Shown here: piece after piece, positions 18,122-36,548 of the stretch
How positions within the stretch are numbered: position 1 is the stretch's first letter
Layout of the letters: each line of letters begins with the position of its first letter
Source: Paraburkholderia ginsengiterrae
GTDB taxonomy: Bacteria > Pseudomonadota > Gammaproteobacteria > Burkholderiales > Burkholderiaceae
Assembly: GCF_001645125.1 (NCBI RefSeq)
Contig: NZ_LXKA01000221.1
Span: 186,001 to 250,000 of the forward strand
Length of the DNA: 64,000 bases
Direction of reading: 5' to 3'
Translations under genes and position numbers: made by a program
Notes under the pieces: model-generated
The model's database searches: none
What the model was told of the DNA's origin: nothing
Seen by the model: only the letters and a program-made list of their open reading frames with translations

Positions 18122-18617
18122 TTACGGTCTGTACCCTTCAGAAAACACGTAGTACTGGTAGAGGTTATACCCAATCATCACCGGAAAGATGAGGCCGATT
18201 CCGATCAGCATGAACACCAGTGTCGACGAATCGGAAGCGGCTTCCACGATACCCAGCTTGCCCGGGATAAAGTCGGGAAAGAGGCTGAGGGCAAGGCCGA
18301 TAAACGAAACGAAGAACAGGGTGACCGATGCGCGGAACGGACCCCGCGAGCGCCCCCTGATCAGCGAGCCGATCACGTACACGTATGCGAGCGCTGCTGC
18401 CGCGTCGAGCCCGACCAGCAGATGAAACACGCCGGGCCGGGTCCAGCGGTCGTGCCCCACTGCGCTGATAAACCAGGCCGCGGCGCTTGCGTAGCAGGCT
18501 GAGTATGCCGATGCCGATGCCGAGGTCGAAGCCGTCGGTGACCACGTAGAACGCCAGCATCAGGCCGATCAGGCCGAACCAGGTGTACGCGAGCGTCGTG
18601 TGAATCGAGTTGTCCAT
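18122..18617 (-). pseudogene. cydB: Cytochrome bd oxidase subunit II, internally deleted and frameshifted
   Basis: The first about 40 residues of CydB are present near 18490-18615 (HTTLAYTWFGLIGLMLAFYV, then DGFDLGIGI). The frame then jumps to the last about 110 residues (18122-18460: DAAAALAYVYVIGSLIRGRS, LALSLFPDFIPGKLGI, IGIGLIFPVMIGYNLYQYYV). A CydB of about 330-380 residues should have some 200 residues between these parts; they are missing, and the two ends are in different frames. The product cannot assemble with haem or quinol, so I call it a pseudogene. It lies downstream of the cydA tail in the normal gene order. Confidence 0.82.
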
Positions 18618-18642
18618 GAGATGTCCTCGTAATCGGATTGAG

Positions 18643-18903
18643 TCAGTACCCGCTGACGGCCGTCGCCGCTTCAGCCTTGACGGACGCGGATGGCGTCAAC
18701 TTGAGATCGGGACCGGTGCGCAGCCAGTTGCGCGCGAGCACGAAGAAGGTGAGCAGCAGCACGACGTTGAAAGCGCAGAACATCACCATGCTTAGGGTGA
18801 CAGACGATGGCGCCACGCTCGACACAGCGTCCCTGGTGCGTAGCAGCCCGTAGACGATCCAGGGCTGGCGGTCCACCTCGCGCACAATCGCATGAAGGTG
18901 AGT
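18643..18903 (-). pseudogene. cydA: Cytochrome bd oxidase subunit I, C-terminal remnant
   Basis: Only about 85 C-terminal residues of CydA remain: VREVDRQPWIVYGLLRTRDA, the conserved GRQPW-type motif after the eighth helix, then a last transmembrane helix (FCAFNVVLLLTFFVLARNWL) and a short cytoplasmic tail. The haem ligands and Q-loop that lie in the first 400 residues are absent, and sequence above about 18905 no longer resembles CydA. The tail ends just before the cydB start, as in an intact operon. Confidence 0.8.
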
Positions 18904-19300: not shown

Positions 19301-20806
19301 ATGATAAAGATCGGTCGAGTAACGGTATCGTTGGAAATGCGTGAGATGTACCTGGATGATCGGCTGGTCCAGGTCGGCTCAAGGGCATTCGATATTCTCG
19401 AACTGCTGATCCTGGCGAGAGGCAAGACCGTCACGAAAGACGAGATTCTTCGACGCGTGTGGCCGAATTCAGTGGTCGAGGAAAATAACATTCATGTCCA
19501 GCTTTCGGCGCTCAGGAAAATCCTGGGTGCGGACAAGCACGCGATCTGCACGATCTCCGGGCGGGGCTACCGGCTCATTGTGCCGGCTGAAGCGACTGCT
19601 CCGGCTGTGTTGCCCGAAGCCGTCCACAGCGGGCAAACGGCTGCGGCGCGCCGCCATGGTCTGCCGGTTTGCCACGTGCCGTTGCTCGGGCGCGAGGGCG
19701 CGATTGCCGACATCATCCGGGCCTTGCAGGAGACGCCGATTGTCAGCTTGCTCGGGCCGGGAGGCATCGGCAAGACGCAACTCGGCATCGCGGTGGCACG
19801 GTCCATCGCGGCCGCGTCCGAGGTTGACGTGTGCTTCGTCACCTTGGCGGCGGTGGAGAACGCCCAGGGCGTCATCAATATGATCGCCGGAGCGCTGGGC
19901 GCGGGCCATGCCGATGACGAGGCTACCCTGCAGTCGCTTATCGCCGCGGTACGGGGACGCAAGTTGCTGGTCGTGCTGGATAACTGCGAGCACGTGATCG
20001 ACCCGGCGGCAACCGTATGCGAACTGCTCGTCCAGGCAAGCGCGGACCTGCGTATTCTGGCAACGAGCCGTGAGCCGTTGCGAACCCGTGAAGAGAAGTT
20101 CTATTGGGTGGCACCGCTCGATACTCCGGATGCAGGCGCAAGCCCGGCCGCGATTCAAGCCTGTAGTTCAGTTAGGCTGTTTCTGGCGCAGATGCGCGCG
20201 TTCAACGCGGAGGTCGAGACAGACGCCGGCAGCCTCGAGATGGTGGCGACGATCTGCCGCCGGCTCGACGGTGTGCCGCTGGCTCTCGAACTGGCGGCGG
20301 CGCGTGCCGCGGTGTTCGGTATTCGTAAGACGATTTCCGGGCTCGACGACCGGTTCCACTTTCTGACGGGCGGCCGTCGCACCGCGCCGCCGCGGCAGCA
20401 GACGCTGGAGGCGACGCTCGACTGGAGTTATCAGCTTCTCAGCACGACGGAGCGTATCGTGCTGCACCGGCTCGGTGTTTTCCCGGCAAGGTTTTCACTG
20501 GAAGCAGCGTGTGCTGTCGCAGCCTGTGAGCGGCTGTCGCACAACGAAGTGACGGAGGCGATCGTCGGTCTGGCCTCCAAGTGCGTCGTCATGACCGCCC
20601 TCGACAGCAAGACCAAGGAATACTTCCTGCTCGAAACGACGCGCGAATATGCGCTGCGCAAACTGTATGAATCGGACGAGGCCGATGACGTGCTGACGAG
20701 AAGCGCGGCTTATCTGGCATCGTTTTACGCGCAGCCTCGCGCGCGCAGTTTCACGACCGCGAGGCTCGCCGACAACCTTGCCGCGGAATCCGTTGCAACG
20801 CGTTAA
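19301..20806 (+). CDS. Winged-helix/STAND-ATPase transcriptional regulator
   Basis: A 501-residue protein. Residues 1-95 form an OmpR/PhoB-type winged helix (SRAFDILELLILARGKTVTK, EENNIHVQLSALRKILG, SGRGYRLIVP). Residues 125-380 form a STAND/NB-ARC ATPase with Walker A LLGPGGIGKTQ, Walker B LLVVLDNCEHV, the sensor ILATSREPL and GVPLALELAAARA. A winged-helix-like region follows to about residue 470. STAND regulators normally carry long C-terminal TPR repeats that bind the effector; here the protein stops soon after the ATPase module. It is followed by a FixJ-type regulator gene and faces a paralogue at 21996-23489. It probably acts as an ATP-dependent switch on DNA. Confidence 0.88.
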   Translation: MIKIGRVTVSLEMREMYLDDRLVQVGSRAFDILELLILARGKTVTKDEILRRVWPNSVVEENNIHVQLSALRKILGADKHAICTISGRGYRLIVPAEATAPAVLPEAVHSGQTAAARRHGLPVCHVPLLGREGAIADIIRALQETPIVSLLGPGGIGKTQLGIAVARSIAAASEVDVCFVTLAAVENAQGVINMIAGALGAGHADDEATLQSLIAAVRGRKLLVVLDNCEHVIDPAATVCELLVQASADLRILATSREPLRTREEKFYWVAPLDTPDAGASPAAIQACSSVRLFLAQMRAFNAEVETDAGSLEMVATICRRLDGVPLALELAAARAAVFGIRKTISGLDDRFHFLTGGRRTAPPRQQTLEATLDWSYQLLSTTERIVLHRLGVFPARFSLEAACAVAACERLSHNEVTEAIVGLASKCVVMTALDSKTKEYFLLETTREYALRKLYESDEADDVLTRSAAYLASFYAQPRARSFTTARLADNLAAESVATR

Positions 20807-20897
20807 GGCAACGGCCGAAACCTGCGGGAAAGCATCTTTTGCGTCGGGTCTCATGTACCATGAAGGCACTCAAATCCCAATTTTTCTGGAATCTGAA

Positions 20898-21524
20898 ATG
20901 CCTGGTCCCTCGGAGCTTGAGCCGATGGTGTACGTGATCGACGACGAAGACATGGTGCGTGATGCGCTAGGGCGCCTGTTGCGCTCAGCAGGTTTCAACG
21001 TGCAGGGTTTTGCGTCGCCGGCGGAGATACTTTCAAAAGAACTGCCCAGCGTGCCGATGTGTATCTTACTGGATATGAACCTGGAAACTACGACCGGCTT
21101 CGATGTCCAAAGCCAGCTCGCGCAGAAGGGCGTGCAGGTGCCGATTATCTTTCTGACCGGGTATGGGTCCATTCCAATGTCGGTGCGTGCGATCAAGGCG
21201 GGTGCGCACGAATTCCTCACCAAACCGATCGACGACGAAGAGCTGCTCGACGCAGTGCGGCGCGCGCTCGCACAGGACGAAGCCAACCTCGCGGGGCGCG
21301 CCCTCAGCGCGCAGTTGCTGCAGCGTGCGGCGTCGCTGACGCCGCGTGAAATGGACGTCTTCGAACTGGCGGTGGATGGCCGGATGATCAAGCAGATCGC
21401 GCATGAACTCGGCACGCAGGAGGTGACGGTAAAGGTTCATAAGCGGCGCGTGATGAGCAAGATGGGCGCAAAGACGCTTATCGAGCTGGCAAAAATGTGG
21501 GAGTTGATCCATCAGGCGCGGTGA
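20898..21524 (+). CDS. FixJ-type response regulator
   Basis: A 208-residue regulator: a receiver domain with VYVIDDEDMVRD, acceptor Asp59 in LLDMNLETTTGFD, the T/K switch residues (FLTGYGS, FLTKPID), and a C-terminal LuxR/FixJ helix-turn-helix (LTPREMDVFELAVDGRMIKQ, EVTVKVHKRRVMSKMGA). It starts 91 bases after the STAND regulator gene; an upstream in-frame ATG at 20853 is possible. No histidine kinase gene is directly adjacent, so its donor may be one of the kinases encoded at 24477-33232. Confidence 0.9.
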   Translation: MPGPSELEPMVYVIDDEDMVRDALGRLLRSAGFNVQGFASPAEILSKELPSVPMCILLDMNLETTTGFDVQSQLAQKGVQVPIIFLTGYGSIPMSVRAIKAGAHEFLTKPIDDEELLDAVRRALAQDEANLAGRALSAQLLQRAASLTPREMDVFELAVDGRMIKQIAHELGTQEVTVKVHKRRVMSKMGAKTLIELAKMWELIHQAR

Positions 21525-21599
21525 GGATCCGGAAGCAGTCAATATCGCGCCGTCAATCGGCCCCCGTTACTACGTCGGCGGAATTGGAGCAAGGAAGCT

Positions 21600-21974
21600 A
21601 TGAGTGTTGTATGCATCGTCGACGACGACGCCTCGGTGCGAAGCGGCGTCGGCAACCTGCTTAAGGCAGTGGGTTATACGGCCGTGACGTTTGCATCGGG
21701 AGAGGAATTCCTCGCCTCACCGATGGTCGACGAAGCGCTGTGTGTTTTGCTCGACGTCAAAATGCAAGGCATGCAGGGCCTCGAAGTGCAGCGGCAACTG
21801 AACGCGGAGCATCGAAGCATTCCGGTTGTCTTCATGTCGGCGCATGGCGACGACGACTCGGTTCAGCGGGCGCTTCGCCACGGCGCGGTCGGTTTTCTGC
21901 GCAAACCCTTTGCGGAAGAACTCCTGCTCGATTCCATCGAGCTTGCTATTGCACGCGTGAGCAGGGCGCACTGA
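21600..21974 (+). CDS. Receiver-only response regulator
   Basis: A 124-residue stand-alone receiver domain: CIVDDDASVRSG, acceptor Asp52 in VLLDVKMQG, FMSAHGD and Lys in LRKPFAEE. There is no output domain. The ATG at 21600 follows AAGGAAG by a few bases. Such proteins act as phosphate shuttles or sinks, or bind a partner allosterically. The sequence resembles the receiver of the FixJ-type regulators nearby. It converges with the paralogous STAND regulator gene; the stops are about 20 bases apart. Confidence 0.9.
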   Translation: MSVVCIVDDDASVRSGVGNLLKAVGYTAVTFASGEEFLASPMVDEALCVLLDVKMQGMQGLEVQRQLNAEHRSIPVVFMSAHGDDDSVQRALRHGAVGFLRKPFAEELLLDSIELAIARVSRAH

Positions 21975-21995
21975 CCCGAAGCCGGCAGCGCGCGT

Positions 21996-23489
21996 TCAAG
22001 CGTACTGCAGCGCGAGGTTCGTATGTTCATGAGGCGTCGCGATTGTATCGACGTCGTCCGTCACGGCGCCACGCGTGCGTTGAAAGTATTCGTGTTTGCA
22101 GAACATGAGGTCGCTTTCACCTGATTCGGCAAGCATTTGCAGCGCATACGCGCGGGTCGTTTCGAGCAGGTGGTAGGTCATGAGCGAGCCATTCGGCCCG
22201 AACATGAGCAGTGACTTCGAGACGAGACCGGCGATAGCCTCGGTGACGTCGTCCGCGCGGAGCTCATCGTACGCAGCGACTTCACAGGCCGCACTGAGCT
22301 GAAAGGCGCCGTCGAATACGCTGATACGTCGCAAGACGATCCGTTCCCGCTCGCAGAGAAACTGGTGACTCCAGTCGAGTGCCGCCTTCAGCGTTTGCTG
22401 CCGCGGTGGCGCGGTACGAAGCCCGCCGGTGAGCACGCCAAAGCGCTGGTCGAGTCGCGCGACCAGTTCGCTGATGCCGAGTGCGGCGACCCGCGCCGCC
22501 GCCAATTCCAGCGCAAGCGGCAAACCGTCCAGGCGCCGGCAGATCGTGCCGATCAGCGTGGTGCTCTCGCCGTCCGCCAGAAAGGACGGCGCATGTGCGT
22601 GGGCGCGGGAAACGAACATGTCTACGGCGCTGCACCTGAGAATGTCGTCGTGCCCGGCATGTTCGGCGGGCACTTCCAGCGGCGCCACCCAGTAGATCCG
22701 TTCAAGGCAGGTGCGCAAGGGTTCACGGCTCGTCGCCAGAATACGGAGGTTGGGATTGCTCTCGACCAGTTGCTCGCAGATCGAAGCCGCCTGCTGAATC
22801 ACATGCTCGCAATTGTCCAGCACGATGAGCATCTTGCGGCATCCGATGGCGTGGATGAGGCTCGATGCAGTGACCACGCCTGTCGAACCTGCGCAAGCCA
22901 GCCTGTCGGCGATGGCACTCAAGGTGGACTCGGGGCGCTCGACGGTGGACAGATTGATGTATCGAACGTCGTTGAAAAGAGGTGTCAGACCACGCGCCAC
23001 TTCAAGGCCAAGCTGCGATTTGCCGATGCCGCCGGCGCCGACCAGCGTGACATGAGGCGACTCGGCGAGCGCGCTCTTTACTTCGTCGAGCGCTTTCTCG
23101 CGGCCGATGAGCGGCGTGTGACCAAGCGGCACATTGCTCAGCGGCGCAGAGTCCGGATTTGCCGCGCCGTCGCTTCTCGCTGCTGCCCGGTGTTCAATGT
23201 CATCGGGACACGTCAGAAGATAACCGCGACCCGGTATGGTCTTGATGAAGTCCCGGCCGTTGCCGAGCAGTTTTCGAAGCGAGGCAATATGCACCTGCAG
23301 ATTGCTTTCTTCGACGATCGTGTCGGGCCACACTCGCTCGAGAAGCTCGTCTTTGCTGACAAGCTTGCCGGCTGCCTCGATTAGCACTTCGAGAATGTCG
23401 AATGCGCGCGTGCCGACGCGCAACGGCTGGCCTTTCAGATAAAGCTGCCGTTGCTCCAGCGATACGTCGACTGGACCGATTCTGATCAT
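21996..23489 (-). CDS. Winged-helix/STAND-ATPase transcriptional regulator (paralogue)
   Basis: A 497-residue protein with the same architecture as the one at 19301-20806: a winged helix (residues 1-95: TRAFDILEVLIEAAGKLVSK, EESNLQVHIASLRKLLG, PGRGYLLTCP), Walker A LVGAGGIGKSQL, Walker B MLIVLDNCEHV, ILATSREPLRT and GLPLALELAAARV, and a short C-terminus. I start at ATG 23489 because MIRIGPVDVSLEQ aligns with the start of the paralogue; the frame is open about 36 codons further upstream. It too lacks the usual C-terminal TPR arm. It is transcribed away from the OmpR-type regulator gene, with 278 bases between them. Confidence 0.88.
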   Translation of the reverse strand: MIRIGPVDVSLEQRQLYLKGQPLRVGTRAFDILEVLIEAAGKLVSKDELLERVWPDTIVEESNLQVHIASLRKLLGNGRDFIKTIPGRGYLLTCPDDIEHRAAARSDGAANPDSAPLSNVPLGHTPLIGREKALDEVKSALAESPHVTLVGAGGIGKSQLGLEVARGLTPLFNDVRYINLSTVERPESTLSAIADRLACAGSTGVVTASSLIHAIGCRKMLIVLDNCEHVIQQAASICEQLVESNPNLRILATSREPLRTCLERIYWVAPLEVPAEHAGHDDILRCSAVDMFVSRAHAHAPSFLADGESTTLIGTICRRLDGLPLALELAAARVAALGISELVARLDQRFGVLTGGLRTAPPRQQTLKAALDWSHQFLCERERIVLRRISVFDGAFQLSAACEVAAYDELRADDVTEAIAGLVSKSLLMFGPNGSLMTYHLLETTRAYALQMLAESGESDLMFCKHEYFQRTRGAVTDDVDTIATPHEHTNLALQYA

Positions 23490-23767
23490 GGCGGTTTCGC
23501 GAGAGGTTGAGTTGGGCACAGCTGCCACCGACCGCGTGTCTGGTAAAGTTACGACGATCTTACGATTCGCGAACTCCCCCCACGATGAGGGATTCATTAA
23601 AGATAGTTAACGCGGCGAGCGACGTGGCCGGCGTTTGAGGTATCTGAAATGTATCTCGCGAGTCGCTCTGGGAAAATTAAAAAAATTTAATCAGATTGGC
23701 GAATTGGGGCGTGGCCCCTTTCACCGATAATCGGATGATTCATGGAAGCGGAGCACGCGAGATTTAA

Positions 23768-24448
23768 ATGAAAATCTTGCTCGTCGAAGATAACGAACAG
23801 GTTGCCGGGTTTTTGAAGAAAGGCCTGATGGAGGCGGGACATGTGGTCGACTGCGCAGATAACGGCCGTGACGGCATGTTCCTTGCAGCAGGCGAAACCT
23901 ATGACGCCATCATCATGGACCGCATGCTGCCCGGCGGCATCGACGGCCTGGGTATCATCGCGGCCCTGCGCGCCACGGGAAATCGCGTGCCCATTCTGAT
24001 CGTGAGCGCGCTGGACGACGTCGACGAGCGGATTCGCGGCTTGAAGGCGGGCGGCGACGACTACGTCGTCAAGCCGTTTGCGTTCGGCGAAGTGCTGGCC
24101 AGGCTCGACGCGCTGGCGCGCCGCACGCAAGAAAGCTACGCGGAAACCACGCTGAAAGTGGGCGATCTGTCGATCGATCTGCTGTCGCGCAAAGTGACGC
24201 GAGCCGGCAAGCTGATCGCGCTGAAACCGCGCGAATTCAAGTTGCTCGAATACCTGATGCGGCACGCGGACCAGGTCGTCACGCGCACCATGCTGCTCGA
24301 AAATATCTGGGACTACCACTTCGACCCTCAAACGAACGTGATCGACGTGCATGTGAGCAAACTGCGTCAAAAGATCGATGCGGGGTTCGAGCGGTCCCTG
24401 CTGAGGACGGTTCGCAACGCGGGCTACGTGTTGACGGTGAACGATTAG
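23768..24448 (+). CDS. OmpR-family response regulator
   Basis: A 226-residue regulator of the CopR/IrlR/QseB kind: a receiver with LLVEDNEQVAGF, acceptor Asp51 in IIMDRMLPGG, IVSALDD and Lys in VVKPFAF, and a C-terminal winged helix (LKPREFKLLEYLMRHADQVV, TNVIDVHVSKLRQKID, RNAGYVL). A dedicated membrane kinase gene usually follows such regulators. Here the next gene, only 28 bases away, is the giant pseudokinase/ATPase/kinase, so that protein is the likely donor. Divergent from the second STAND regulator gene. Confidence 0.93.
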   Translation: MKILLVEDNEQVAGFLKKGLMEAGHVVDCADNGRDGMFLAAGETYDAIIMDRMLPGGIDGLGIIAALRATGNRVPILIVSALDDVDERIRGLKAGGDDYVVKPFAFGEVLARLDALARRTQESYAETTLKVGDLSIDLLSRKVTRAGKLIALKPREFKLLEYLMRHADQVVTRTMLLENIWDYHFDPQTNVIDVHVSKLRQKIDAGFERSLLRTVRNAGYVLTVND

Positions 24449-24476
24449 TCCGACAGTGGCGGGTGGGGGCGGCGGC

Positions 24477-27400
24477 ATGATTGAGTTGTCAGGCTTTGGG
24501 TTCGAGACTCTCTGTGACGATAGTGAGTTCGTGCTCTCGCGGGTCAGCCGGCGCGATGGCGCCGAGACGTGGCTGGCCGTCACGTTGCCTGCGTTGCAGC
24601 CCGCGGCCAATAGTCAGGCGCGCCTCGAGCATGCGTATGAGTTGCGAAGCCTGCTCGACGGTCATTTCGTTACCCGGCCTCACGCCCTGATCGAGCACCG
24701 TGGGAGCGCGGCGCTGGTACTGGAAGACCCGGGTGGGATCTCGCTCTCCGCGATGCCAATGGGCTCGCTGCCACTTAGCTGCTTCCTCGCGATTGCAGCC
24801 AATCTCGCGGCGGCACTCGGCGCGTTGCATGGACGCGGTCTTATCCACAAAGACATCCGACCGGCCAACGTTCTTGTCAATCCGGAAACGGGCGGCGTGG
24901 CGCTGACCGGCTTCGGCATCGCCTCAAGCGTGACCGGCGAGCCGCCGGCCAGCACGCCGCCTGATGTCACCGCTGCGGCGCTTGCCTACCTGGCACCTGA
25001 GCGGACCGGCCGTATGAATCGTCCGGTCGATTCGCGTGCGGACCTCTATTCGCTGGGTATCACGTTCTACGAAATGCTGACCGGCGGGTTTCCGTATCGC
25101 GCGAATTCGCCGATCGAATGGATTCATTGCCACATCGCCAGACCGCCGATTCCGTTGAATGAATTGACGCGCGACGTGCCGCCCCAGCTCGCCGCGATTG
25201 TGATGCGCCTGCTCGCTAAAACGGCTGAGGAGCGCTATCAGACGGCACAGGGTCTTGAAAGCGATCTGCGCCATTGTCTCGACGCGTGGAAGCAAACTGG
25301 TCGCGTCGACCCATTTCCGCTCGGCGCGCATGATGTTGCCGAGCGCTTGCGCATTCCCGAGCGATTGTATGGACGCGAGGTGCAGTCGGCTGCATTGAAT
25401 GCCGCGTTTGACCGCGTGGTGCGGCAGGGCAAGCCGGAGCTCGTGCTCGTATCGGGCTACTCCGGCATCGGCAAATCGTCGCTGGTGAATGAACTGAAGA
25501 AGCAGCTCGGACCGTCTTATGGACAGTTTGCTGCCGGCAAATTCGACCAGTACAAGCGCGATATTCCTTATACGACGCTCGGGCAGGCATTTCAGAGTCT
25601 GACCCAGCAAATACTCGACCGGGGTGAGGCAGAGGTCGCGCATTGGCGTGAGCGGCTCAGCGAGGCGGTCGGTTCGAACGGACAACTGATTGTTAATCTG
25701 ATTCCGGAAGTCGAAGACATCATCGGTCCGCAACCGGCGGTGCCGGAGCTGCCGGCGCAGGAAGCGCAGATTCGATTTCATGGCGTGTTCGGGCGTTTCA
25801 TCGGCGCTTTTACGCAGACCGGTCATCCGCTGGTCCTCTTTCTGGACGATCTGCAATGGCTGGATGCCGGCACGATCTGTCTGCTGGAGAGTCTGCTTGC
25901 CATGCCGGCGCTGCAGAATGTGCTGCTCGTTGGCGCCTATCGCGACAACGAGGTGGGCCCCGCGCACCCGCTCAGCCGCACCTTGACCACCATTCGCGAG
26001 TTGGGCGTGCCGGTTCACGATATCGTGCTGACGCCGCTGCAGAGCGGCGACGTGGCGCGCCTGGTCGGCGAAACATTGCACGCGAGAACGGCCGAGGTCG
26101 ACAGCCTCTCGCAATTCATCGTCGAGAAGACGGGCGGCAACCCCTTTTTCACGGTGCAGTTTCTCAGAGCGCTCGCCGAGGAGCACCACCTGGTATTCGA
26201 TCCGGTGCGCCGCGCGTGGGGATGGGACATGGCACGCCTTCGCGAGGCGCGCTTTTCGGATAGCGTCGTCGATCTGATGGTGAGCAAGATCGGCCGTGTG
26301 CCGGCTGTCACGCAGGCCGCGCTCAAACAGTTCGCGTGTTTCGGCAACAGCGCGACCACTGCGCTGCTGACGCGTGTCGCGGGTACGTCGGACACCGAGG
26401 TGCATCGTGCGCTCGCCGACGCGGTGACAGCGGGCCTCGTGTTCCGGCGAGAGCACGGCTACGCGTTTCTTCACGACCGCGTGCAGGAAGCGGCCTATGC
26501 GCTGATTCCCGCCGATGAGCGTGCGGCGGCCCATCTGCGAATCGGCCGCATGTTCGCGGCCAACGCGGAAGGAGAGGATATCGAACAGAATATCTTCGAG
26601 ATCGTCAACCAGTACAACCGCGCGGCCGAACTCATCGACGACCCGGCGGAGTGCGAACGCGTCGTCAAATTCAATCTGATTGCCGGGCGGCGCGCGAAGA
26701 TGTCGTCCGCCTACGCGTCGGCATCGACTTATCTGTCGGCGGGCAGCGCGCTGCTCGGCGATGAGGCGTGGGATACCCGCTATTCGCTCAAGTTCGCGCT
26801 GGAAAGCAGCCTTGCGGAGTGCGAATTTCTGACCGGCGACACCAGCTCGGCCAAAGAGCGGCTGGCGAGCCTGTCGAAGCGTTGCACGACGCTGGCTGAC
26901 CGCGCTGCCGTGACGTGGTTGCGAGTGACGCTGTTCACCGCGCTCGATCAGAGCGACCTGGCGGTGGAAATCTGCCTGGAGTATTTGCGCGCTATCGGGA
27001 TTGACTGGGACCCGCACCCCACCCGCGAACAGGCGCGCAGCGAGTACGACCGGCTCCTGCAGCAGATCGGCGATTCTCCGATCGAATCGCTGATCGATCT
27101 GCCCTTGCTCACCGACACGGACCGGCGCGCGACGCTGGATGTGCTTACCGCGGTCCTGCCACCCGCGTTTTTCAGCGATGAGAACTTGGTCTGCCTCGTG
27201 TTGTCGCGCATGGCGAACCTGAGCATCGAGCACGGCAACAGCGACGCGTCGTCGATCGGCTACGCTTACCTGGGCATGGTGGCCGGCCCGGTATTCGGCG
27301 ATTACGAGGCAGGCTTCCGTTTTGGCCAGCTAGGCTTGGGTCTCGTCGACGAGCGTGGTCTGCAACGCTTCAAGCCGCGTGTCTACATGTGCTTTGCGTA

Positions 27401-29486
27401 TCACGTGATGCCGTGGACCAAGCACATTCGCACGGGCCTTCCGCTCTTGCGGCGGGCGTTCGATGCCGCAAGCGAGAGCGGTGACCTTACGTACACCGGC
27501 TTCAGCAGTTGCTGCCTCGTGACCAGCTTGCTGGCGGCGGGCGATCCGCTCCCCGACGTCGAACGCGAAGCTCAGCAGCGCCTCGGTGTGGTGCAAGCCG
27601 CGAAATTTGGGCTGATTGTCGATATTATCGGCGCGCAGTTGCAGCTCGTTCGAAGCTTGCGCGGCTTGACCGCCTCGTTAGGGTCCTTCAATGACGACGC
27701 ATTCGACGAAGCGGCGTTCGAGCAGCATCTCGAAGCCGACCCGTGCCTGGCGATTGCCACATGCTGGTACTGGATCCGCAAACTGGAAGGGCGCTATTTC
27801 GCGGGAGATATAGCGGACGCGATGACGGCCGCCGAGAAGGCGGAACCGTTGTTGTGGACCTCGTCCGGTCACTTCGAGCTTGCCGAGTACCATTTCTACG
27901 CCGCACTCGCCCGGGCACGCCGGTATGACGATGCGGCGCCCGAAGAGCAGGCGGAGCAATTGCGCAAGCTCGTCGAGCATCACGCCAAACTCGAGATCTG
28001 GGCCGAGCACTCGCCGAGCAATTTCGCGAGCCGCGCGGCGTTGGTCGCCGGCGAGATTGCACGTATCAAGGGAAACGAGTTCGAGGCGATGCGTGAATAC
28101 GAAAGCGCAATCCGTTTCGCGCGTGAGCAGGAGTTCCCGTTGGTCGAGGCGCTGGCGCACGAAATCGCCGCGACGTTCTACATGGCGCGCGGATTTGCGA
28201 CGATCGCCTTTGTCTACCTCGGCAATGCGCGGCTGGCTTACCTTCGGTGGGGCGCGTTGGCCAAGGTTCAGGCGCTTGACCGGCGCTATCCGAATCTGGT
28301 TCATGAGCCGGCGAACGATGCGCCGACAAGGAGTTTTGTCGCCGAACAGCTCGACGTCGAGACGGTCGTCAAGGCGTCACAGGCGATTTCGGGCGAGATT
28401 GTCTTCGAAAAGCTGATTCACACGCTGATGACCATCGTGCTGGAGCATGCCGGCGCGGGGCGGGCGCTGCTCGTCTTGCCGCGTGCGGAGACGTTGTGGG
28501 TCGAAGCCGAAGCGCTCGCCGGGCGCGAGGGCGTGGAGGTGCGTCTGCAACACGAAGTCGTGACGCCGCGCCATTTGCCGACATCGATTCTGCATCACAG
28601 TATTCGCACACAGGAGCGTGTGTTGCTCGATGACGCGTCGCAGCCCAATCCGTTTTCAGCGGACGAGTACCTTCGTTCGAGCCGTTCGCGCGCCGTGTTG
28701 TGTCTTCCGCTCATGAAGCAGGCGAAACTGATGGGCGTGCTCTATCTGGAAAACGAGCTCGCGCCGGGCGTGTTTACGCCGCCGCGGATCGCCGTGCTGG
28801 ACCTGCTGGCGTCGCAGGCCGCGATTTCACTGGAGAACGCGTCGCTGGAAGAGAAAGAAGCGCTGCTCGAAGAGAAGGAGGCACTGCTGCACGAAGTCCA
28901 CCACCGGGTGAAGAACAATTTGCAGCTGATCAGCAGTTTGCTCAATCTGCAGGCATCACGTGTAACGGACAAGTCAGTCGCCGGCCTGTTCGCCGATAGC
29001 CGCAACCGGGTGCGGTCGATGGCGCTGGTGCACGAGAACCTCTATCGCGCGGGCAATTTCGCGCGAATCGCCATGGCGACACACGTGAAGAACCTGTGTG
29101 GCCATCTCGCACGCGCTTTCGACATGCGCCAGATGGGTGTGGACTTGCAGGTCGAAGTTGACGACGTGCAACTGGACATGAACCGTGCGGTATCCTGCGG
29201 CCTGATTATCAACGAGCTGGTTTCCAACGCATTGAAGCACGCGTTTCCGGATGGCCGTGGCGGCTGCGTGCGTGTGGAACTCGGCCTGGTCGACGAAGGG
29301 CGGTGCAGGCTGACTGTTGCGGACGACGGCGTCGGCATCGCGCCGGGATTCTCGCTGGATGAAGCCGACTCGCTCGGCTTGCAACTGGTCCACGACCTCA
29401 CACACCAGTTGCACGGAACCCTGGAACTGAGCCGCACGGGCGGCACGTCGTGCAGCATTGTGTTCAACGCAAACGGACGTGGATAG
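24477..29486 (+). CDS. Giant signalling protein: pseudokinase + AAA/STAND ATPase + GAF + histidine kinase
   Basis: A 1669-residue protein. Residues 1-270 have a Ser/Thr-kinase fold with the catalytic loop IHKDIRPANVLVN (Asp126), but DFG is GFG (145-147) and no VAIK lysine is visible, so it is probably a pseudokinase. Residues 300-620 form an ATPase with Walker A GYSGIGKSS (about 327) and Walker B LVLFLDDLQWLD. A long helical, TPR-like region follows to about 1270, then a GAF domain (about 1290-1450), a coiled coil with an exactly doubled heptad, and a HisKA_2 kinase (HHRVKNNLQ near 1475) with an HATPase domain (IINELVSNALKHAF). The architecture is known from proteobacteria and cyanobacteria. 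Start ATG 24477 has a G-rich site (GGTGGGGG); a GTG at 24456 is possible. Confidence 0.92.
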   Translation: MIELSGFGFETLCDDSEFVLSRVSRRDGAETWLAVTLPALQPAANSQARLEHAYELRSLLDGHFVTRPHALIEHRGSAALVLEDPGGISLSAMPMGSLPLSCFLAIAANLAAALGALHGRGLIHKDIRPANVLVNPETGGVALTGFGIASSVTGEPPASTPPDVTAAALAYLAPERTGRMNRPVDSRADLYSLGITFYEMLTGGFPYRANSPIEWIHCHIARPPIPLNELTRDVPPQLAAIVMRLLAKTAEERYQTAQGLESDLRHCLDAWKQTGRVDPFPLGAHDVAERLRIPERLYGREVQSAALNAAFDRVVRQGKPELVLVSGYSGIGKSSLVNELKKQLGPSYGQFAAGKFDQYKRDIPYTTLGQAFQSLTQQILDRGEAEVAHWRERLSEAVGSNGQLIVNLIPEVEDIIGPQPAVPELPAQEAQIRFHGVFGRFIGAFTQTGHPLVLFLDDLQWLDAGTICLLESLLAMPALQNVLLVGAYRDNEVGPAHPLSRTLTTIRELGVPVHDIVLTPLQSGDVARLVGETLHARTAEVDSLSQFIVEKTGGNPFFTVQFLRALAEEHHLVFDPVRRAWGWDMARLREARFSDSVVDLMVSKIGRVPAVTQAALKQFACFGNSATTALLTRVAGTSDTEVHRALADAVTAGLVFRREHGYAFLHDRVQEAAYALIPADERAAAHLRIGRMFAANAEGEDIEQNIFEIVNQYNRAAELIDDPAECERVVKFNLIAGRRAKMSSAYASASTYLSAGSALLGDEAWDTRYSLKFALESSLAECEFLTGDTSSAKERLASLSKRCTTLADRAAVTWLRVTLFTALDQSDLAVEICLEYLRAIGIDWDPHPTREQARSEYDRLLQQIGDSPIESLIDLPLLTDTDRRATLDVLTAVLPPAFFSDENLVCLVLSRMANLSIEHGNSDASSIGYAYLGMVAGPVFGDYEAGFRFGQLGLGLVDERGLQRFKPRVYMCFAYHVMPWTKHIRTGLPLLRRAFDAASESGDLTYTGFSSCCLVTSLLAAGDPLPDVEREAQQRLGVVQAAKFGLIVDIIGAQLQLVRSLRGLTASLGSFNDDAFDEAAFEQHLEADPCLAIATCWYWIRKLEGRYFAGDIADAMTAAEKAEPLLWTSSGHFELAEYHFYAALARARRYDDAAPEEQAEQLRKLVEHHAKLEIWAEHSPSNFASRAALVAGEIARIKGNEFEAMREYESAIRFAREQEFPLVEALAHEIAATFYMARGFATIAFVYLGNARLAYLRWGALAKVQALDRRYPNLVHEPANDAPTRSFVAEQLDVETVVKASQAISGEIVFEKLIHTLMTIVLEHAGAGRALLVLPRAETLWVEAEALAGREGVEVRLQHEVVTPRHLPTSILHHSIRTQERVLLDDASQPNPFSADEYLRSSRSRAVLCLPLMKQAKLMGVLYLENELAPGVFTPPRIAVLDLLASQAAISLENASLEEKEALLEEKEALLHEVHHRVKNNLQLISSLLNLQASRVTDKSVAGLFADSRNRVRSMALVHENLYRAGNFARIAMATHVKNLCGHLARAFDMRQMGVDLQVEVDDVQLDMNRAVSCGLIINELVSNALKHAFPDGRGGCVRVELGLVDEGRCRLTVADDGVGIAPGFSLDEADSLGLQLVHDLTHQLHGTLELSRTGGTSCSIVFNANGRG

Positions 29487-29495
29487 GTACTCGCT

Positions 29496-32069
29496 ATGGC
29501 CCCCGCACGCATTCTGGTAGTCGAAGACGATCGGGTGGTCGCCAGAGACCTCGCGCAGCAGATGAGCCGCGCGGGCCACACGGTGGTCGGCATCACCGCG
29601 CGCGGCGAAGACGCAGTTCCGCTCGCAGCCGAGACCGCACCGGATCTGGTCCTGATGGACGTGCGGCTGGAGGGCGAACTCGACGGAATCGACACCGCAC
29701 GGCTGCTCCGTGAGAATTTCAATCTGCCGGTCGTTTTCCTGACCGCTTATGCCGACGAAGAAACGGTTCGGCGCGCAACCCTTACCGAACCGTTCGGATA
29801 CGTTCTCAAGCCGTTTGACGATATGCAACTGCGTACTGTCGTCGACATGGCGCTCTATAAGCACGGCGCGGAACGCCGCTTGCGCGAAAGTGAACAACGG
29901 TACGCGGTCACGCTGTCGAGTATTGGCGACGCGGTGATTGCGACTGACCGGGAATCGTGCATCACCTTTATCAACCCGGTCGCGGAAACGCTGACGGGCT
30001 GGGCTAGCCACGATGCGATGGGACGCCCGCTGGTGGACGTATTTCGCGTGATCAACGAAACCACGCGTGCGCCGGCGAAAGATCCGGTGACCGCCGTGCT
30101 GAGCGCCGGCACCATAGTTGAACTGGCGAACCACACGCTGCTGCTCTCGCGCGACGGACATGAGATCGCGATCGAAAACAGCGGGTCGCCTATCGTCGAC
30201 GATCGTGGCGAAATTCTCGGCGTGGTGCTGGTGTTTCGCGACGTCACGCAAAGGCGTCGAGCCGAAGAGGCGGAAATACTGCGTGAAACGAATGCCCGCC
30301 TTGAAATGGCGATGCACGGATCCAACGTCGGTGTGTGGGAAATCGACATGCCGGACGGCGACCACCATCATGGATTCGCGCAATTTTCAAACATCTGGGA
30401 ATGGCTTGGCTTCACGCGTCCGACCACTTTGCTGGATTACGATGCCTATATGTCGGTGTTGCATCCCGATGACCGCGCACGCACCGAAGCGGCGATACAG
30501 CGCTACCTCAAGCGAGAGACAGACGTGTTCGAAGTGGAGAACCGCCTGTGCCATCGCGATGGGACCATCCGCTGGGTGCTCGTGCGCGGTATGGCGCGGT
30601 GGAATGCAAGCGGGAAACCGATCCGCTTCGTTGGCAGTCTGGTAGACATCACGCAACTGAAACTGACTGAGCAGGCGCTCCGGTCCAGTGAAGCGCGCTT
30701 TCGCGGCACCTTCGAAAACGCCGCGGTTGGCATCGCGCACTGCGATCTCGACGGGCACTTCTTGCGCCTGAATCAACGCCTGTGCGATATCGTCGGCCAC
30801 CAGCGTGAGACCCTGTTGCTCAACCGCTTTCAGGATATTGCCGATCCGGACTTTCTGGTCGCGAGCGAGGAAAAATACCGCTCGCTGACCGAGGGCAGGC
30901 TTTCGCACTACTCGGAGGAGATGCCGCTCGTCAGACTCGACGGGTCTCGCGTCTGGGTGAGCGTGTCGGTGGCGCTTCAGCGCGACGCGAACGGCCGGGC
31001 GCTTCACACCATTGCGATCTTGCAGGATATTTCGGCGCGCAAGGCGTTGGAGGACGCGGTACGCGTCGCAAAAGACGCCGCCGAATCGGCAAACCGCGCC
31101 AAAGACCAGTTTCTCGCCAACATCAGCCACGAGTTGCGTACACCGCTGAACGGTATTCTGGGTTATGCGCAGATTTTGCGGCGCGACGCAGCCATGACGG
31201 AGCGGCAACTGTCGAGTCTGAAAGTGATCGAACAGAGCGGCGAGCATCTGCTCATGCTGATCAACGACATTCTCGACTTTGCCCGGATCGAAGCGGGCAA
31301 GCTCGAACTGAACGTGACGGACGTACCGCTCGGACCGTTTATACGGGTCATCGCCGAAATGGTGAGCGTGCGCGCTGATCAGAAGAATCTTGTCCTGAAC
31401 CTCGAAGCGCCCGCGAATCTGTCGCTGGTTATTCGTGTGGACGAAAAACGCCTCCGGCAGGTGCTGTTGAATCTGCTTGCGAATGCAGTCAAGTTCACGG
31501 ACCAGGGTGAAGTCACGTTGGTCGTTCGAATGATTTCGGATGGAAGGCTGCGCTTCGAAGTCAGAGATACGGGTGTCGGCGTGAGTCCGGACAGGCTGGA
31601 AACGATCTTTCATCCCTTCGAGCAGGCCGGCAATTTGACTCAGCGTACAGGCGGTGTAGGTCTTGGACTGGCGATCAGCCGCCAGTTGGTGCAAGTGATG
31701 GGCGGCGACATTCATGTCACGAGCACCGTGGGCAGTGGCAGCACGTTCTGGTTCGAACTGGATGTACCCGTGTCCTATGCGGAGGTGGCGGATTTCAGTC
31801 CAACCCTTCAGGTCGCGGATCGTGAAGGCGAGCCGCGCCAACCCGTTGTGATCGACAATCCCATCGTCCCACCGCCTGAGGAAATGGCGACACTGCATCG
31901 CTTTGCGCTGCTTGGCTCCATGCGTGCCATCGTCCATCACGCGGATTACCTGATCAACCTCGATGCCCGCTATGAGGCCTTCGCGACGCAATTGCGCCGT
32001 CTTGCGTCGGCATTTGAATCGCAGGCCTTACTATCCATGATCGAACGACATTTGGATCGAGACTCGTGA
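29496..32069 (+). CDS. Hybrid sensor kinase: receiver - three PAS - histidine kinase
   Basis: The 857-residue product has an N-terminal receiver (ILVVEDDRVVARD, VLMDVRLEGELDG, FLTAYADEE, GYVLKPF), three PAS/PAC units (about 130-270, 275-395 and 400-520) and a HisKA/HATPase core with ISHELRTPLNG (His545), LLNLLANAVKFTD, DTGVGVS and GGVGLGLAISRQLVQ. A C-terminal extension of about 100 residues has a helical end. No transmembrane segment is seen, so it senses in the cytoplasm. It begins nine bases after the giant kinase gene and overlaps the next gene by GTGA. A receiver before the PAS units suggests it can accept phosphate as well as donate it. Confidence 0.92.
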   Translation: MAPARILVVEDDRVVARDLAQQMSRAGHTVVGITARGEDAVPLAAETAPDLVLMDVRLEGELDGIDTARLLRENFNLPVVFLTAYADEETVRRATLTEPFGYVLKPFDDMQLRTVVDMALYKHGAERRLRESEQRYAVTLSSIGDAVIATDRESCITFINPVAETLTGWASHDAMGRPLVDVFRVINETTRAPAKDPVTAVLSAGTIVELANHTLLLSRDGHEIAIENSGSPIVDDRGEILGVVLVFRDVTQRRRAEEAEILRETNARLEMAMHGSNVGVWEIDMPDGDHHHGFAQFSNIWEWLGFTRPTTLLDYDAYMSVLHPDDRARTEAAIQRYLKRETDVFEVENRLCHRDGTIRWVLVRGMARWNASGKPIRFVGSLVDITQLKLTEQALRSSEARFRGTFENAAVGIAHCDLDGHFLRLNQRLCDIVGHQRETLLLNRFQDIADPDFLVASEEKYRSLTEGRLSHYSEEMPLVRLDGSRVWVSVSVALQRDANGRALHTIAILQDISARKALEDAVRVAKDAAESANRAKDQFLANISHELRTPLNGILGYAQILRRDAAMTERQLSSLKVIEQSGEHLLMLINDILDFARIEAGKLELNVTDVPLGPFIRVIAEMVSVRADQKNLVLNLEAPANLSLVIRVDEKRLRQVLLNLLANAVKFTDQGEVTLVVRMISDGRLRFEVRDTGVGVSPDRLETIFHPFEQAGNLTQRTGGVGLGLAISRQLVQVMGGDIHVTSTVGSGSTFWFELDVPVSYAEVADFSPTLQVADREGEPRQPVVIDNPIVPPPEEMATLHRFALLGSMRAIVHHADYLINLDARYEAFATQLRRLASAFESQALLSMIERHLDRDS

Positions 32070-33232
32070 GCACAACGGAACCATTCGGCGCGGGCGCACC
32101 CATTGTTCTGGTTGTCGACGACACACCGGCGAATCTGGGACTCGTGGTTGAATGCCTCGAAAGCAACAATCTGCGGGTCGCCGTTGCGCGTGACGGGGCG
32201 GAAGCGTTGCGGCGCGCAGCGCTGGTGCAGCCCAACCTGATTCTGCTCGATGTCATGATGCCCGGACTCGACGGCTTCGAGACCTGCCGGCAATTGAAGG
32301 CCGCCGAGACGACGCGCGACATTCCGGTGATCTTCATGACTTCGCTCACGCGAACGGAGGACAAGGTCACGGGCTTTCGCGCCGGGGCGGTGGATTACAT
32401 CACCAAGCCGCTGCAGATGGAAGAAGTGGCCGCACGCGTCGATACGCACCTGAAACTGCACGCGCTGCAAAAACTGCAGGAAGAGCAGAACATCCAGCTG
32501 CAAAAGGAAGTGAAGACGCGCAAACAGGCCGAGGAGGCGCTGCTCGAAGTCATCAATGGTGTGCGCAACGTGTCGAACGCGATCGCTCACGATTTGCGCA
32601 CGCCGCTCACCGAATTGCGTTCGCGCCTCGAGGTGATGACGCTGACGCTGCGACGGCAAGGCAAAGATGATCAATGCCTGACCGAACTCGAGGTCGCATT
32701 GTCCGATGTCGATCGCGTGATCAGCATCTTCAATGCGCTTTTGCGTCTCGCCGAAATCGACGCGGGCGTTCGCCGCTCGGGATTCATGCCGAGCGATCTG
32801 GACACCATCGTTTCGGACGCGGTCGAGTTCTATCAACCGGTGGCGGAGCTGCGCCGCGTTACGCTGTCGCTTCGGACTTCCGGTGATCTGACAGCTGTAT
32901 CCGATCCGCTTCTGCTTGCACAGGCGATCGGCAATCTGATCGACAACGCATTGAAATTCGCGTCGGAGGGGGGAGAGGTCAGTGTCGTCGCCACGCGCAC
33001 CGACGACATGATTGCGATTTCGGTTGCGGACGACGGCCCAGGCATTCCGGATGAGGAAAAGTCAAAAGTCACCGAGCGGTTCTATCGTGGCGACGCAAGC
33101 CGCGGAACGCCGGGCGTGGGCCTTGGGCTCGCACTCGTGAAGGCGGTCGCGACGCTCCATCGCGGCTCGCTCGCCTTTAACGACAATCAACCAGGGCTGA
33201 TCGCGACCCTGAATGTGAACTGTGGTCATTGA
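32066..33232 (+). CDS. Receiver-histidine kinase fusion
   Basis: A 388-residue protein starting with GTG in a four-base overlap with the gene before. Residues 1-130 are a receiver (LVVDDTPANLGL, acceptor Asp62 in LLLDVMMPGLDG, FMTSLT, ITKPLQ), then a coiled coil (QEEQNIQLQKEVKTRKQAEE) and a HisKA/HATPase core with IAHDLRTPLTE (His175), IGNLIDNALKFA, DDGPGIP and GVGLGLALVKAVA. It has no sensory domain, so input must come through its receiver or coiled coil. Such proteins often serve as middle steps in a relay. Confidence 0.92.
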   Translation: MSTTEPFGAGAPIVLVVDDTPANLGLVVECLESNNLRVAVARDGAEALRRAALVQPNLILLDVMMPGLDGFETCRQLKAAETTRDIPVIFMTSLTRTEDKVTGFRAGAVDYITKPLQMEEVAARVDTHLKLHALQKLQEEQNIQLQKEVKTRKQAEEALLEVINGVRNVSNAIAHDLRTPLTELRSRLEVMTLTLRRQGKDDQCLTELEVALSDVDRVISIFNALLRLAEIDAGVRRSGFMPSDLDTIVSDAVEFYQPVAELRRVTLSLRTSGDLTAVSDPLLLAQAIGNLIDNALKFASEGGEVSVVATRTDDMIAISVADDGPGIPDEEKSKVTERFYRGDASRGTPGVGLGLALVKAVATLHRGSLAFNDNQPGLIATLNVNCGH

Positions 33233-33402
33233 GCAATCTGCACCTATTTGGTACCAGATCGAGCTGCACGTCAGGCTAGTTGCTTGTTATACATTCGTAT
33301 GGTTTCCCGGCTGAGCCTTCTGAATTATCCTTGTACGGTTGAATGCGCGGGCGTAGCAGTCCGCGCGTTCGTAGACCATTATTTGGGAACCGGGGCCGCC
33401 GC

Positions 33403-33774
33403 GTGGACGCCACTCAGATTGTTTGTATCGTCGACGACGACGAGTCAGTCCGGAGGGCCACGGCGAGCCTGGTACGCTCGCTTGGATGGCAAACACGCGT
33501 ATTTGCATCGGCGGAAGAGTTTCTCCAATCCAGTGATCTGGGCGGGACTGCCTGTCTGATCTCCGATGTGCGAATGCCCGGCATGTCGGGCATCGAGATG
33601 CACGTTCAGCTTTTGAAGTACGGGTACGCACCGCCCACCCTGTTCATTTCGGCATTCCCCCCAGTCGCGCTTCAGGCGAAGATCGAAGAGGATGGGGTGT
33701 TGGCGTTTCTCCCCAAACCTGTCGATGCCACCGCCATGGCGCATTGGCTCAGTCGGGCGTTGGGTTCGCCCTGA
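33403..33774 (+). CDS. Receiver-only response regulator
   Basis: A stand-alone receiver domain of about 123 residues: CIVDDDESVRRA, acceptor Asp55 in LISDVRMPGMSG, LFISAF and Lys in FLPKPVD. I start at GTG 33403 because the domain begins at once; an ATG at 33343 in the same frame would add 20 arginine-rich residues. It lies 170 bases after the receiver-kinase gene and closes the signalling series. No DNA-binding domain follows, so it acts as a shuttle or through a partner. Confidence 0.85.
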   Translation: MDATQIVCIVDDDESVRRATASLVRSLGWQTRVFASAEEFLQSSDLGGTACLISDVRMPGMSGIEMHVQLLKYGYAPPTLFISAFPPVALQAKIEEDGVLAFLPKPVDATAMAHWLSRALGSP

Positions 33775-33795: not shown

Positions 33796-34908
33796 TTAGC
33801 TCATGGCCGGGTAGTCGGTGTAGCCGCTTACATCTCCGCCGAAGAAACTGGTGCTGTCCGCGACATTCAGCGGGTGCCCGCCGCGCAGGCGAGCCGGCAG
33901 GTCGGGATTTGCAATGAAGGGTCTGCCGAACGCAATGATGTCGGCCCGGCCGTTGGCGATCGCCTGTTCGGCGGTATCGCGGTCATAGCCGCCGGCGATC
34001 ATCAGCACACCTTTGAATTCTTCGCGCAGCAGCTTGATGATGGCATCCCAGCGCGGGTCGAAGTTTTCGTCCTTGACCGTCCCTACCATCGCCGGTTCGA
34101 CCAGATGCAGATAGGCGAGGCCATAGTCGCTGAGCTTTCGCACGATGTAGCCGAACGTTGCCTCGGGCGTTTCATCACCCATGCCCATGAAGCGTCCCAT
34201 GGGTGTGAGGCGGACCCCGACGTTTTGCGGGCCCACTTCGTCGCTGACGGCGGCGACGACTTCAAGCAGCAGGCGGGCGCGATTTTCGATGCTGCCGCCG
34301 TAGCTATCGGTGCGTTGATTGCTGTTGCTGTTGATGAACTGATCCAGCAGATAGCCGTTGCCAGCGTGAATTTCAACGCCGTCCATGCCGGCTGCAATCG
34401 CGTTGCGTGCGGCACGCCGGTAGTCGGCGATGATCTCGCGAATGCCTTCAACGGTAAGTTCCTGCGGCACCGGCACGTCGCTCCACACGCCATTGCCGGC
34501 CTCGTCGACAATGAACGTCTTTCCCGGCACCGGCATGGCGGAAGGGGCAACAGGCAGGCCGCCATCCGGCTGGAACACGGGGTGGGAAACACGGCCAACG
34601 TGCCACAGTTGAAGGAACATGTGGCCGCCTTCTTCGTGAACAGCCTTGCTGACGGCGCGCCAGCCTTCAATCTGCTGTTCCGTGTGAATGCCCGGCGTCC
34701 ACGCATAACCTTGGCCCTGCTGCGAGATCTGCGTCGCTTCACTTACGATCAGTGCCGCGCTGGCGCGCTGGCGATAGTATTCGACGTTGATGTCGGTCGG
34801 CACGTTGCCCGGTTGGCCGGCGCGCGAGCGCGTGAGAGGAGCCATTGCAACGCGGTGATCGAGAGAGAGGCGGCCCAGTTTGATCGGGTTAAACAGGTGC
34901 TTGGTCAT
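33796..34908 (-). CDS. Old yellow enzyme-family alkene reductase (NemA-like)
   Basis: A 370-residue FMN-dependent flavoprotein. Visible family signatures are FNPIKLGRLSLDHRVAMAPL at the N-terminus, HAGNGYLLDQFI with the substrate-binding His/Asn pair, SYGGSIENRARLLLEV, GVRLTPMGRF, and phosphate-binding FGRPFIANPDLP near the end. These enzymes use NADPH to reduce activated alkenes, nitrate esters or N-ethylmaleimide. The ATG at 34908 has GGAGC eight bases upstream. The FAD monooxygenase gene lies upstream on the same strand with about 160 bases between, so a shared role in processing an electrophilic or aromatic compound is possible. Confidence 0.93.
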   Translation of the reverse strand: MTKHLFNPIKLGRLSLDHRVAMAPLTRSRAGQPGNVPTDINVEYYRQRASAALIVSEATQISQQGQGYAWTPGIHTEQQIEGWRAVSKAVHEEGGHMFLQLWHVGRVSHPVFQPDGGLPVAPSAMPVPGKTFIVDEAGNGVWSDVPVPQELTVEGIREIIADYRRAARNAIAAGMDGVEIHAGNGYLLDQFINSNSNQRTDSYGGSIENRARLLLEVVAAVSDEVGPQNVGVRLTPMGRFMGMGDETPEATFGYIVRKLSDYGLAYLHLVEPAMVGTVKDENFDPRWDAIIKLLREEFKGVLMIAGGYDRDTAEQAIANGRADIIAFGRPFIANPDLPARLRGGHPLNVADSTSFFGGDVSGYTDYPAMS

Positions 34909-36264: not shown

Positions 36265-36548
36265 GGCGTTCTCCTTTTATTGCCAGGTAGCGGGAGATTA
36301 GCCGTTACGTAATCAGCGGAGAATGCAGGTGCAACGCAATCCACCTTTGCAGGATTTGCAGAAAGTAGTCTTCAAAATTACTGCGGCGAACGGGGTCGCT
36401 CCGTGCATCAGATGAGTGAGCAGAAGGCGACGCGGTTTCCGCTTCCCCTTGCCTGACGCGCAAAGGTGCATTGCCTCATGCTGTGATTCTTATCGGTCGG
36501 CGGCGGCGTTATCGTGCATCTGCAATCAATCCTTTCTGGAGGTGTTCG

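Follow-up and report, generated by a model that had tools for sequence, protein, structure and literature searches.

A 64,000-nucleotide stretch of the Paraburkholderia ginsengiterrae genome (contig NZ_LXKA01000221.1, positions 186,001 to 250,000 of the forward strand; hereafter the window) carries, within 14.5 kb, nine signalling genes designated A to I (Table 1). Four of them, E, F, G and H, constitute an operon whose gene order is conserved among relatives, and this work is mainly concerned with the possibility that the operon encodes a linear chain of three soluble kinases ending in the DNA-binding regulator E. The nine open reading frames (ORFs) and their domains, as given in a first-pass annotation made from the sequence alone, were borne out by an ORF check and by Pfam searches, and so was its count of three kinases, six receivers and four DNA-binding proteins. 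Judged from ORFs and alignments, two translation starts may have to be corrected, that of B to 20853 and that of D to near 23489.

The near-gapless arrangement described before also holds. If F starts at the ATG at 24477 (its longest ORF starts with the GTG at 24456), the E-F gap is 28 bases; it is followed by a gap of 9 bases between F and G and a 4-base overlap of G and H, and H is separated from I by 110 bases. The kinases appear to be free of membrane segments, as had been claimed: in the six proteins tested (A, B, D, F, G and H) a 19-residue hydropathy peak above 1.6 was absent from all but F, whose peak of 1.85 lies inside the kinase-like domain, directly before the HxD motif. None of the nine proteins matched the HPt domain (Pfam, E ≤ 0.001) that characterizes phosphorelays of the Rcs, Arc or Spo0 type. 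The source genome contains 57 HisKA matches and, at E ≤ 1e-6, one HisKA_2 match, namely F.

Table 1. Genes and sequence features of the island (positions in the window)
Feature	Position	Strand	Basis or remark
A, short winged-helix NB-ARC (STAND) regulator	19301..20806	+	Pfam; variable neighbour
B, FixJ-type regulator, REC-GerE	20853..21524 (longest ORF from 20778)	+	Pfam; variable neighbour
C, single receiver	21600..21974	+	Pfam; variable neighbour; relatives adjoin other giant kinases
D, short winged-helix NB-ARC (STAND) regulator	21996..23489 (longest ORF to 23597)	-	Pfam; divergent from E
Distal palindrome copy, 1 mismatch	23596..23611	.	Upstream of likely D start
Proximal palindrome ATTAA-N6-TTAAT	23676..23691	.	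Putative E box
GATAAT	23726..23731	+	Probable -10 of the E-F-G-H operon
E, OmpR/CopR-type response regulator, REC and Trans_reg_C	23768..24448	+	Pfam; putative end of cascade
F, pseudokinase-AAA_16-long middle region-GAF-HisKA_2-HATPase sensor kinase	24477..29486 (longest ORF from 24456)	+	
F, HisKA_2 phospho-acceptor domain	28893..29117	+	Pfam PF07568, residues 1480-1554, 2.4e-26
G, REC-3 PAS-HisKA-HATPase kinase	29496..32069	+	Pfam
G, N-terminal receiver	29496..29885	+	Putative acceptor from F
G, second-receiver remnant	31839..31862 (approximate)	+	Alignment with L059, L060, L066 and G126 (receiver whole there)
H, REC-linker-HisKA-HATPase, Rec-controlled kinase layout	32066..33232	+	Pfam
I, single FixJ-like receiver	33343..33774	+	Pfam; probably outside operon

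Conservation of the E-F-G-H operon

Scanning the named genome collection with F yielded 460 stretches that encode a relative, and the best 80 loci among them were retained. Thirteen of these 80 encode the HisKA_2 end of F, and in 11 of the 13, all from Paraburkholderia or Caballeronia, E, F, G and H follow each other in the same order and on the same strand; the remaining two are metagenome-assembled genomes (MAGs L068 and L097). Across the 11 named relatives identity was 82-92% for E, 56-89% for F and 65-90% for H. (The contig of P. heleia, which belongs to the same genus as the source genome, is present under two labels, G055 and L062.) Together with genome G126, a plasmid of P. largidicola and the window itself, 14 genomes have the operon. 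The comparison covered 19 distinct genomes encoding an F with a HisKA_2 end: these 14, four with a shorter gene set described below, and L097, in which no gene was assigned after the second kinase.

A divergent STAND gene occupies the position of D in 12 of the 14 loci, the exceptions being L066 and L069. In P. largidicola, the divergent STAND gene and E-F-G-H lie on the 607 kb plasmid PPGU16_p2 (L215), near IS66 genes. The unit is therefore not confined to chromosomes.

The giant kinase F

F consists, in this order, of a protein kinase domain (best matched in its C-lobe) and AAA_16, GAF, HisKA_2 and HATPase domains (Pfam). Among 104 F-family matches, some of which are genes counted twice in two overlapping loci, the DFG aspartate is lost in 102 (GFG in 97, GLG in four, GFR in one) and kept in two, the HxD aspartate is kept in 101, and a beta-3 strand lysine was found in none of the 25 commonest strings. 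With both the DFG aspartate and the beta-3 lysine absent, F looks like a pseudokinase.

A similar chain of kinase-like, AAA_16, GAF and histidine kinase domains is found in proteins annotated as 'trifunctional serine/threonine-protein kinase/ATP-binding protein/sensor histidine kinase' and in HstK, a dual protein kinase according to the passages considered (PMC1262709; plasmid annotation). F differs from these in ending with HisKA_2 and in having a Ser/Thr kinase domain without catalytic residues. Since the DFG motif is lost in nearly all family matches, a competent Ser/Thr kinase may not be what defines the trifunctional family. Relatives without HisKA_2 match F over approximately residues 15-1476 with 32-56% identity; most of the other giants found match F only to about residue 1476, and in many of their loci a PAS-HisKA-HATPase stretch like that of G then follows.

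An apparent internal TAA in the F gene of G055 had suggested a broken gene; this was rejected, as the gene is intact, with an ORF of 1667 residues. A search with defence models gave no clear support for a defence function: the kinase-like domain of F matched kinase models such as PD-T4-6, as Ser/Thr kinases generally may, the receiver/ATPase matches of G and H were weak, and A and D had no match among dedicated defence-protein models. On the contig of F, about 66 kb before it, the source genome encodes a second giant (36% identity to F) next to a STAND gene (G000:C111:139888-144303 and 145403-146803); another giant kinase is at C2:195077.

Association of F with G

In a set of 124 loci, mostly fetched via F or STAND genes, the HisKA_2 end of F was present in 20 (19 distinct genomes), and the first 130 residues of G were encoded in the same 20, always adjacent to it. 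Comparable results were obtained with 150 genomes of the family that had not been selected via F or STAND genes. With up to 28 candidates scored per genome, a G receiver (E ≤ 1e-20) was detected in four genomes, exactly those that have an F-type HisKA_2 giant, and in each it is encoded directly 3' of the giant; seven further genomes of the family had weaker HisKA_2 matches and no G-type receiver. In a phylum-wide set of 349 genomes (at most 12 candidates scored per genome), 27 G-type receivers were found in 25 genomes. Twenty of them are within 3 kb of a HisKA_2 kinase, 12, including that of the window, being directly 3' of one.

A shorter form of the operon

In Azospirillum sp. B510, A. brasilense, G089 (a member of the window's own family) and MAG L068, the gene after F encodes a REC-PAS-HisKA kinase, denoted G', with about 510-530 residues, and the next one a FixJ-type regulator. 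In L097, F and G' are likewise adjacent. G' shares 62-73% with G over the first 130 residues of the latter, and its kinase core matched FixL or AtoS models best in the four cases tested (B510, G089, L068 and L097). Thus, the two forms agree in the input half and differ jointly in the kinase half and the downstream partner. The E-F-G-H pathway appears to be a longer version of the pathway leading from F through a REC-PAS-kinase to a FixJ-type regulator in Azospirillum and others, and the short form is probably the older one, as suggested by its wider spread rather than by a rooted tree.

Possible links of H with G and E

H has a receiver at residues 14-125, HisKA at 170-234 and HATPase at 280-374 (Pfam). 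An N-terminal receiver followed by DHp and CA domains, with no membrane sensor, is the layout of Rec-controlled kinases of the LvrB type. The distance between the receiver lysine and the kinase histidine is 61 residues in all 13 orthologues, and the linker between them, judged by eye, may be a coiled coil.

In L059, L060, L066 and G126 a second receiver follows the kinase domain of G. Among the six receivers of the island it is closest to that of H (69-83 bits; next best 47-54). The G protein of P. largidicola also has two receivers. In the window and in L069 the second receiver is missing and the start of its first strand remains, which points to a deletion; in L061-L065, L067 and L072 it is absent without a comparably clear remnant and may have been lost or never present. 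The P. heleia G gene (L062:15000-17246) is shorter, with 748 residues in frame, and gives partial matches that overlap, as would fit the loss of a PAS domain.

Pairing of H with E was assessed by listing E-type regulators and H-core kinases in 16 genomes (the source genome and 15 relatives), with two E-F-G-H loci left out. An E-type regulator was encoded within 2.5 kb of nine of the 11 best H-core matches, compared with nine of the 39 next ones. The NCBIfam models nearest to E are those of CusR/CopR, and the model nearest to H is EpsF, followed by a CopS-type model. CopS has a membrane sensor. In contrast, H has a receiver and no membrane segment, and it looks like a CopS-type kinase in which a receiver has replaced the membrane sensor.

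These similarities also permit the operon to be seen as two separate pairs, F acting on G and H on E, with the H receiver fed by a kinase from elsewhere or serving as a phosphate sink. The support for each pair is better than that for a link from one to the other, and H and E resemble a CopS/CopR pair added to an F-G module that is found elsewhere without H and E. On the other hand, H has no recognised sensor domain apart from its receiver and directly follows G in all 14 loci. Of the six island receivers, that of H is the one most similar to the second G receiver of sister species, and the G core of the window is best matched by models other than those of the FixJ-followed G' proteins. Taking these points into account, we consider two independent pairs unlikely.

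A conserved palindrome upstream of E

In most loci the region between D and E contains two copies of the palindrome ATTAA-N6-TTAAT. In 13 loci taken together, the 300 bases before E contain 24 copies that differ from it by no more than one base (0.025 expected from mononucleotide shuffles), and the window alone has two (0.17 expected from dinucleotide shuffles). The sequence GATAAT starts 33-35 nucleotides after the proximal box in all 13 loci that have the box. In E. coli, regulators of the CusR/HprR family bind a similar 16-base palindrome.

The box was absent from 20 stretches with 25 STAND genes and no E and from five F-G' loci, whereas an exact copy precedes two of the 11 tested E-type paralogues (0.065 expected for the whole set of 11). 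These observations led us to assign the box to E as its predicted site. The kinases adjoining the two box-bearing paralogues rank among those closest to the H core. Two CopR-like regulators of other Paraburkholderia genomes (L224 and L225) have the exact palindrome about 150 nucleotides before them, a hint of DNA specificity shared with E.

Because D is divergent from E, the box might instead be the site of D, with the operon controlled by this STAND regulator; in P. heleia and P. silvatlantica one extra exact box precedes another STAND gene. We regard this as improbable. Both boxes are present in L066, where no divergent STAND match was found, and the distribution just described, with boxes missing beside the 25 STAND genes and present upstream of two paralogues of E, disfavours such an assignment.

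A large E regulon was not found. Exact copies of the box numbered three in the source genome and two in a reversed control, and copies with one mismatch 41 and 28, respectively. With counts so near the control, remote targets cannot be picked out, and the regulon that can be discerned comprises the operon and, by the position of the distal box, D. This goes some way towards answering the impression that the island has no obvious target: candidates are the promoter of the operon and, judged by its place, the divergent D.

A possible three-kinase cascade

Returning to the linear chain, we estimate the probability at roughly one half that E-F-G-H is a soluble three-kinase His-Asp cascade running from F through G and H to E, with E binding the palindromes. 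F would sense a cytoplasmic cue via its pseudokinase, ATPase and GAF modules and autophosphorylate at the HisKA_2 histidine. It would then phosphorylate the N-terminal receiver of G, and this receiver, together with the PAS domains, would switch the TorS-like core of G. G would in turn phosphorylate the receiver of H, whose CopS-like core would be switched via the linker helix, as in LvrB, and H would phosphorylate E. Once phosphorylated, E is predicted to bind the palindromes between D and E and so to activate its own operon and probably also D, through which, as a STAND transcription factor, the signal may reach other genes. Of the earlier proposal of a branched cytoplasmic phosphorelay, the cytoplasmic multi-kinase pathway has genomic support, whereas for its wiring the line F-G-H-E looks likelier than branches among nine genes.

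The genomic support is strong at the F-G and H-E ends and weaker in the middle, and several observations weigh against the cascade. Its weakest step is that from G to H, which is suggested by operon order and by the likeness of the second G receiver of other species to that of H. The G core is nearest to TorS/ArcB-type models (NCBIfam), a typing made in the window alone among the 14 loci. E and H score below the curated NCBIfam cut-offs for CopR/CusR and CopS, E with 241 against 279.2 (TIGR01387) and 244.7 against 420 (NF007346), H with 147.9 against 292.55 (TIGR01386) and also below the cut-off of EpsF, and any of the 57 HisKA matches of the genome could act on H or E. Seven of the 27 G-type receivers of the phylum set (two in G294 and one each in G436, G424, G168, G397 and G175) had no HisKA_2 kinase found nearby; G436, G424 and G175 had no HisKA_2 match at all, G294 has its HisKA_2 genes on different contigs, and match positions were not listed for G168 and G397. 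As to the box, it is absent at E in P. madseniana (L069), where A-B-C run straight into E, it was not found upstream of nine of the 11 E-type paralogues, and the two paralogues that have it may be orthologues of each other.

A more specific version of the cascade, to which we give slightly less than even odds, has three tiers in a layout resembling that of mitogen-activated protein kinases. Here every kinase would bring its own ATPase, and a receiver phosphorylated by the preceding kinase would act as its switch, so that amplification might be possible at every tier instead of a single phosphoryl group being handed on. This arrangement would have evolved from the two-tier F-G'-FixJ pathway by exchange of the middle kinase half and the downstream partner, with the input half unchanged.

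Neighbouring genes

The first-pass annotation had treated all nine genes as one group and had itself named a lack of conserved order in relatives as evidence to the contrary. The E-F-G-H order is kept in all 14 genomes and D mostly, but within the stretches fetched, some of which were short, A-B-C adjoins the operon in three (the window, L060 and L069) and I is near it in two (the window and L069, that is P. madseniana, where it is about 5 kb from H and adjoins a flavoenzyme gene). A nine-gene unit was therefore rejected, since only E-F-G-H is conserved throughout, and the nine-gene branched system is unsupported. That three kinases, six receivers and four DNA-binding outputs form one branched network is accordingly the least probable of the alternatives and very unlikely, even if the genes lie close together, P. 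madseniana and Paraburkholderia sp. BCC1884 also have A-B-C near E, and STAND-receiver-FixJ blocks recur beside other giant kinases, because in G141, G063 and G122 the relatives of A-B-C (a STAND gene with a receiver like C and a FixJ regulator like B) are found beside giants without HisKA_2. A-B-C is more plausibly a block that accompanies giant kinases in general.

STAND genes like A and D were within 5 kb of a giant in 12 of 62 cases (0.2 expected), and the four closest STAND matches of the source genome are all on one contig. STAND genes near E-F-G-H are either long, with about 980 residues, or short, with about 500-530 (L041:4562-7495 and L041:8448-10001); A and D are short. From the conserved neighbours of STAND genes no target was drawn, the listing being full of shadow frames.

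Downstream of the island, in P. heleia, P. madseniana and P. bannensis as in the window, is a gene for an N-ethylmaleimide reductase-type flavoenzyme (33796-34908 of the window, minus strand). Relatives are at L041:2041-3150 and, adjoining I in P. madseniana, at L069:24642-25019 (92% over the part available, and 84% identical). The flavoenzyme gene was considered as a possible target; no box was seen near it. Next in the window are genes for a flavin adenine dinucleotide (FAD)-enzyme and a DsbA-like protein (35071-37199), whose relatives in P. largidicola lie on the other side of the operon (57% and 47%; L215:562-2366); in P. bannensis a DsbA-like relative (58%) is downstream of the operon (L065:23389-24024). 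Just upstream of A there are short reverse-strand frames (18122-18885). One of them (18165-18617) resembles the beginning of cytochrome bd subunit II, weakly and below threshold, and may be what is left of disrupted oxidase genes.

Comparison with known systems

Two-kinase chains with a receiver-led second kinase are already known. In the LvrA-LvrB system of Leptospira, as described in the passages considered, a soluble kinase phosphorylates the receiver of a Rec-DHp-CA kinase and thereby increases its autokinase activity; both genes are in one operon, and LvrA has a receiver and a kinase-like effector after its own kinase part, so that several kinase modules are already strung together (PMC5863495, PMC13269768). 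E-F-G-H resembles this system in its receiver-led second kinase and in the operon, and differs from it in having three separate kinases, two of them receiver-led, and a HisKA_2 giant with pseudokinase and ATPase as the first. It also encodes a DNA-binding regulator, whereas LvrC is a putative anti-sigma factor and the Lvr system is described as branched. KipF of Sphingomonas melonis phosphorylates PakF, which is named as comparable to the sensorless LvrB (PMC5863495). This is a stress-response pathway of two kinases. PhcR is called the prototypical Rec-HK (receiver-histidine kinase) of Ralstonia (PMC13269768), and PhcS is thought to feed PhcR, PhcQ and ChpA (PMC11960443). From the passages concerned, this is branched quorum sensing, of which a giant kinase and an OmpR-type regulator are not part. 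The likeness of E and H to CopS-CopR/CusS-CusR is qualified by the scores and the differences given above.

The first-pass annotation could not match the arrangement to a described pathway, and a three-kinase chain was likewise not found in the open-licence literature on HstK, receiver-kinase cascades, HisKA_2 partners, Rec-HK, STAND genes and kinases of Paraburkholderia, and Phc; nothing was found there on a trifunctional kinase with Burkholderia either. Relative to the known two-kinase chains, one of three kinases would be a new form.

Implications

If the proposed cascade is correct, living relatives hold a short and a long form of one pathway, in which the first receiver was kept and the second half swapped. 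The lengthening of two-component pathways would then become testable, including the gain, delay or thresholds that receiver-gated kinases may bring about, and so would the question whether specificity for the partner travels together with the kinase core as one unit. The palindrome would in addition offer a candidate DNA site and a closed autoregulatory loop for measurement.

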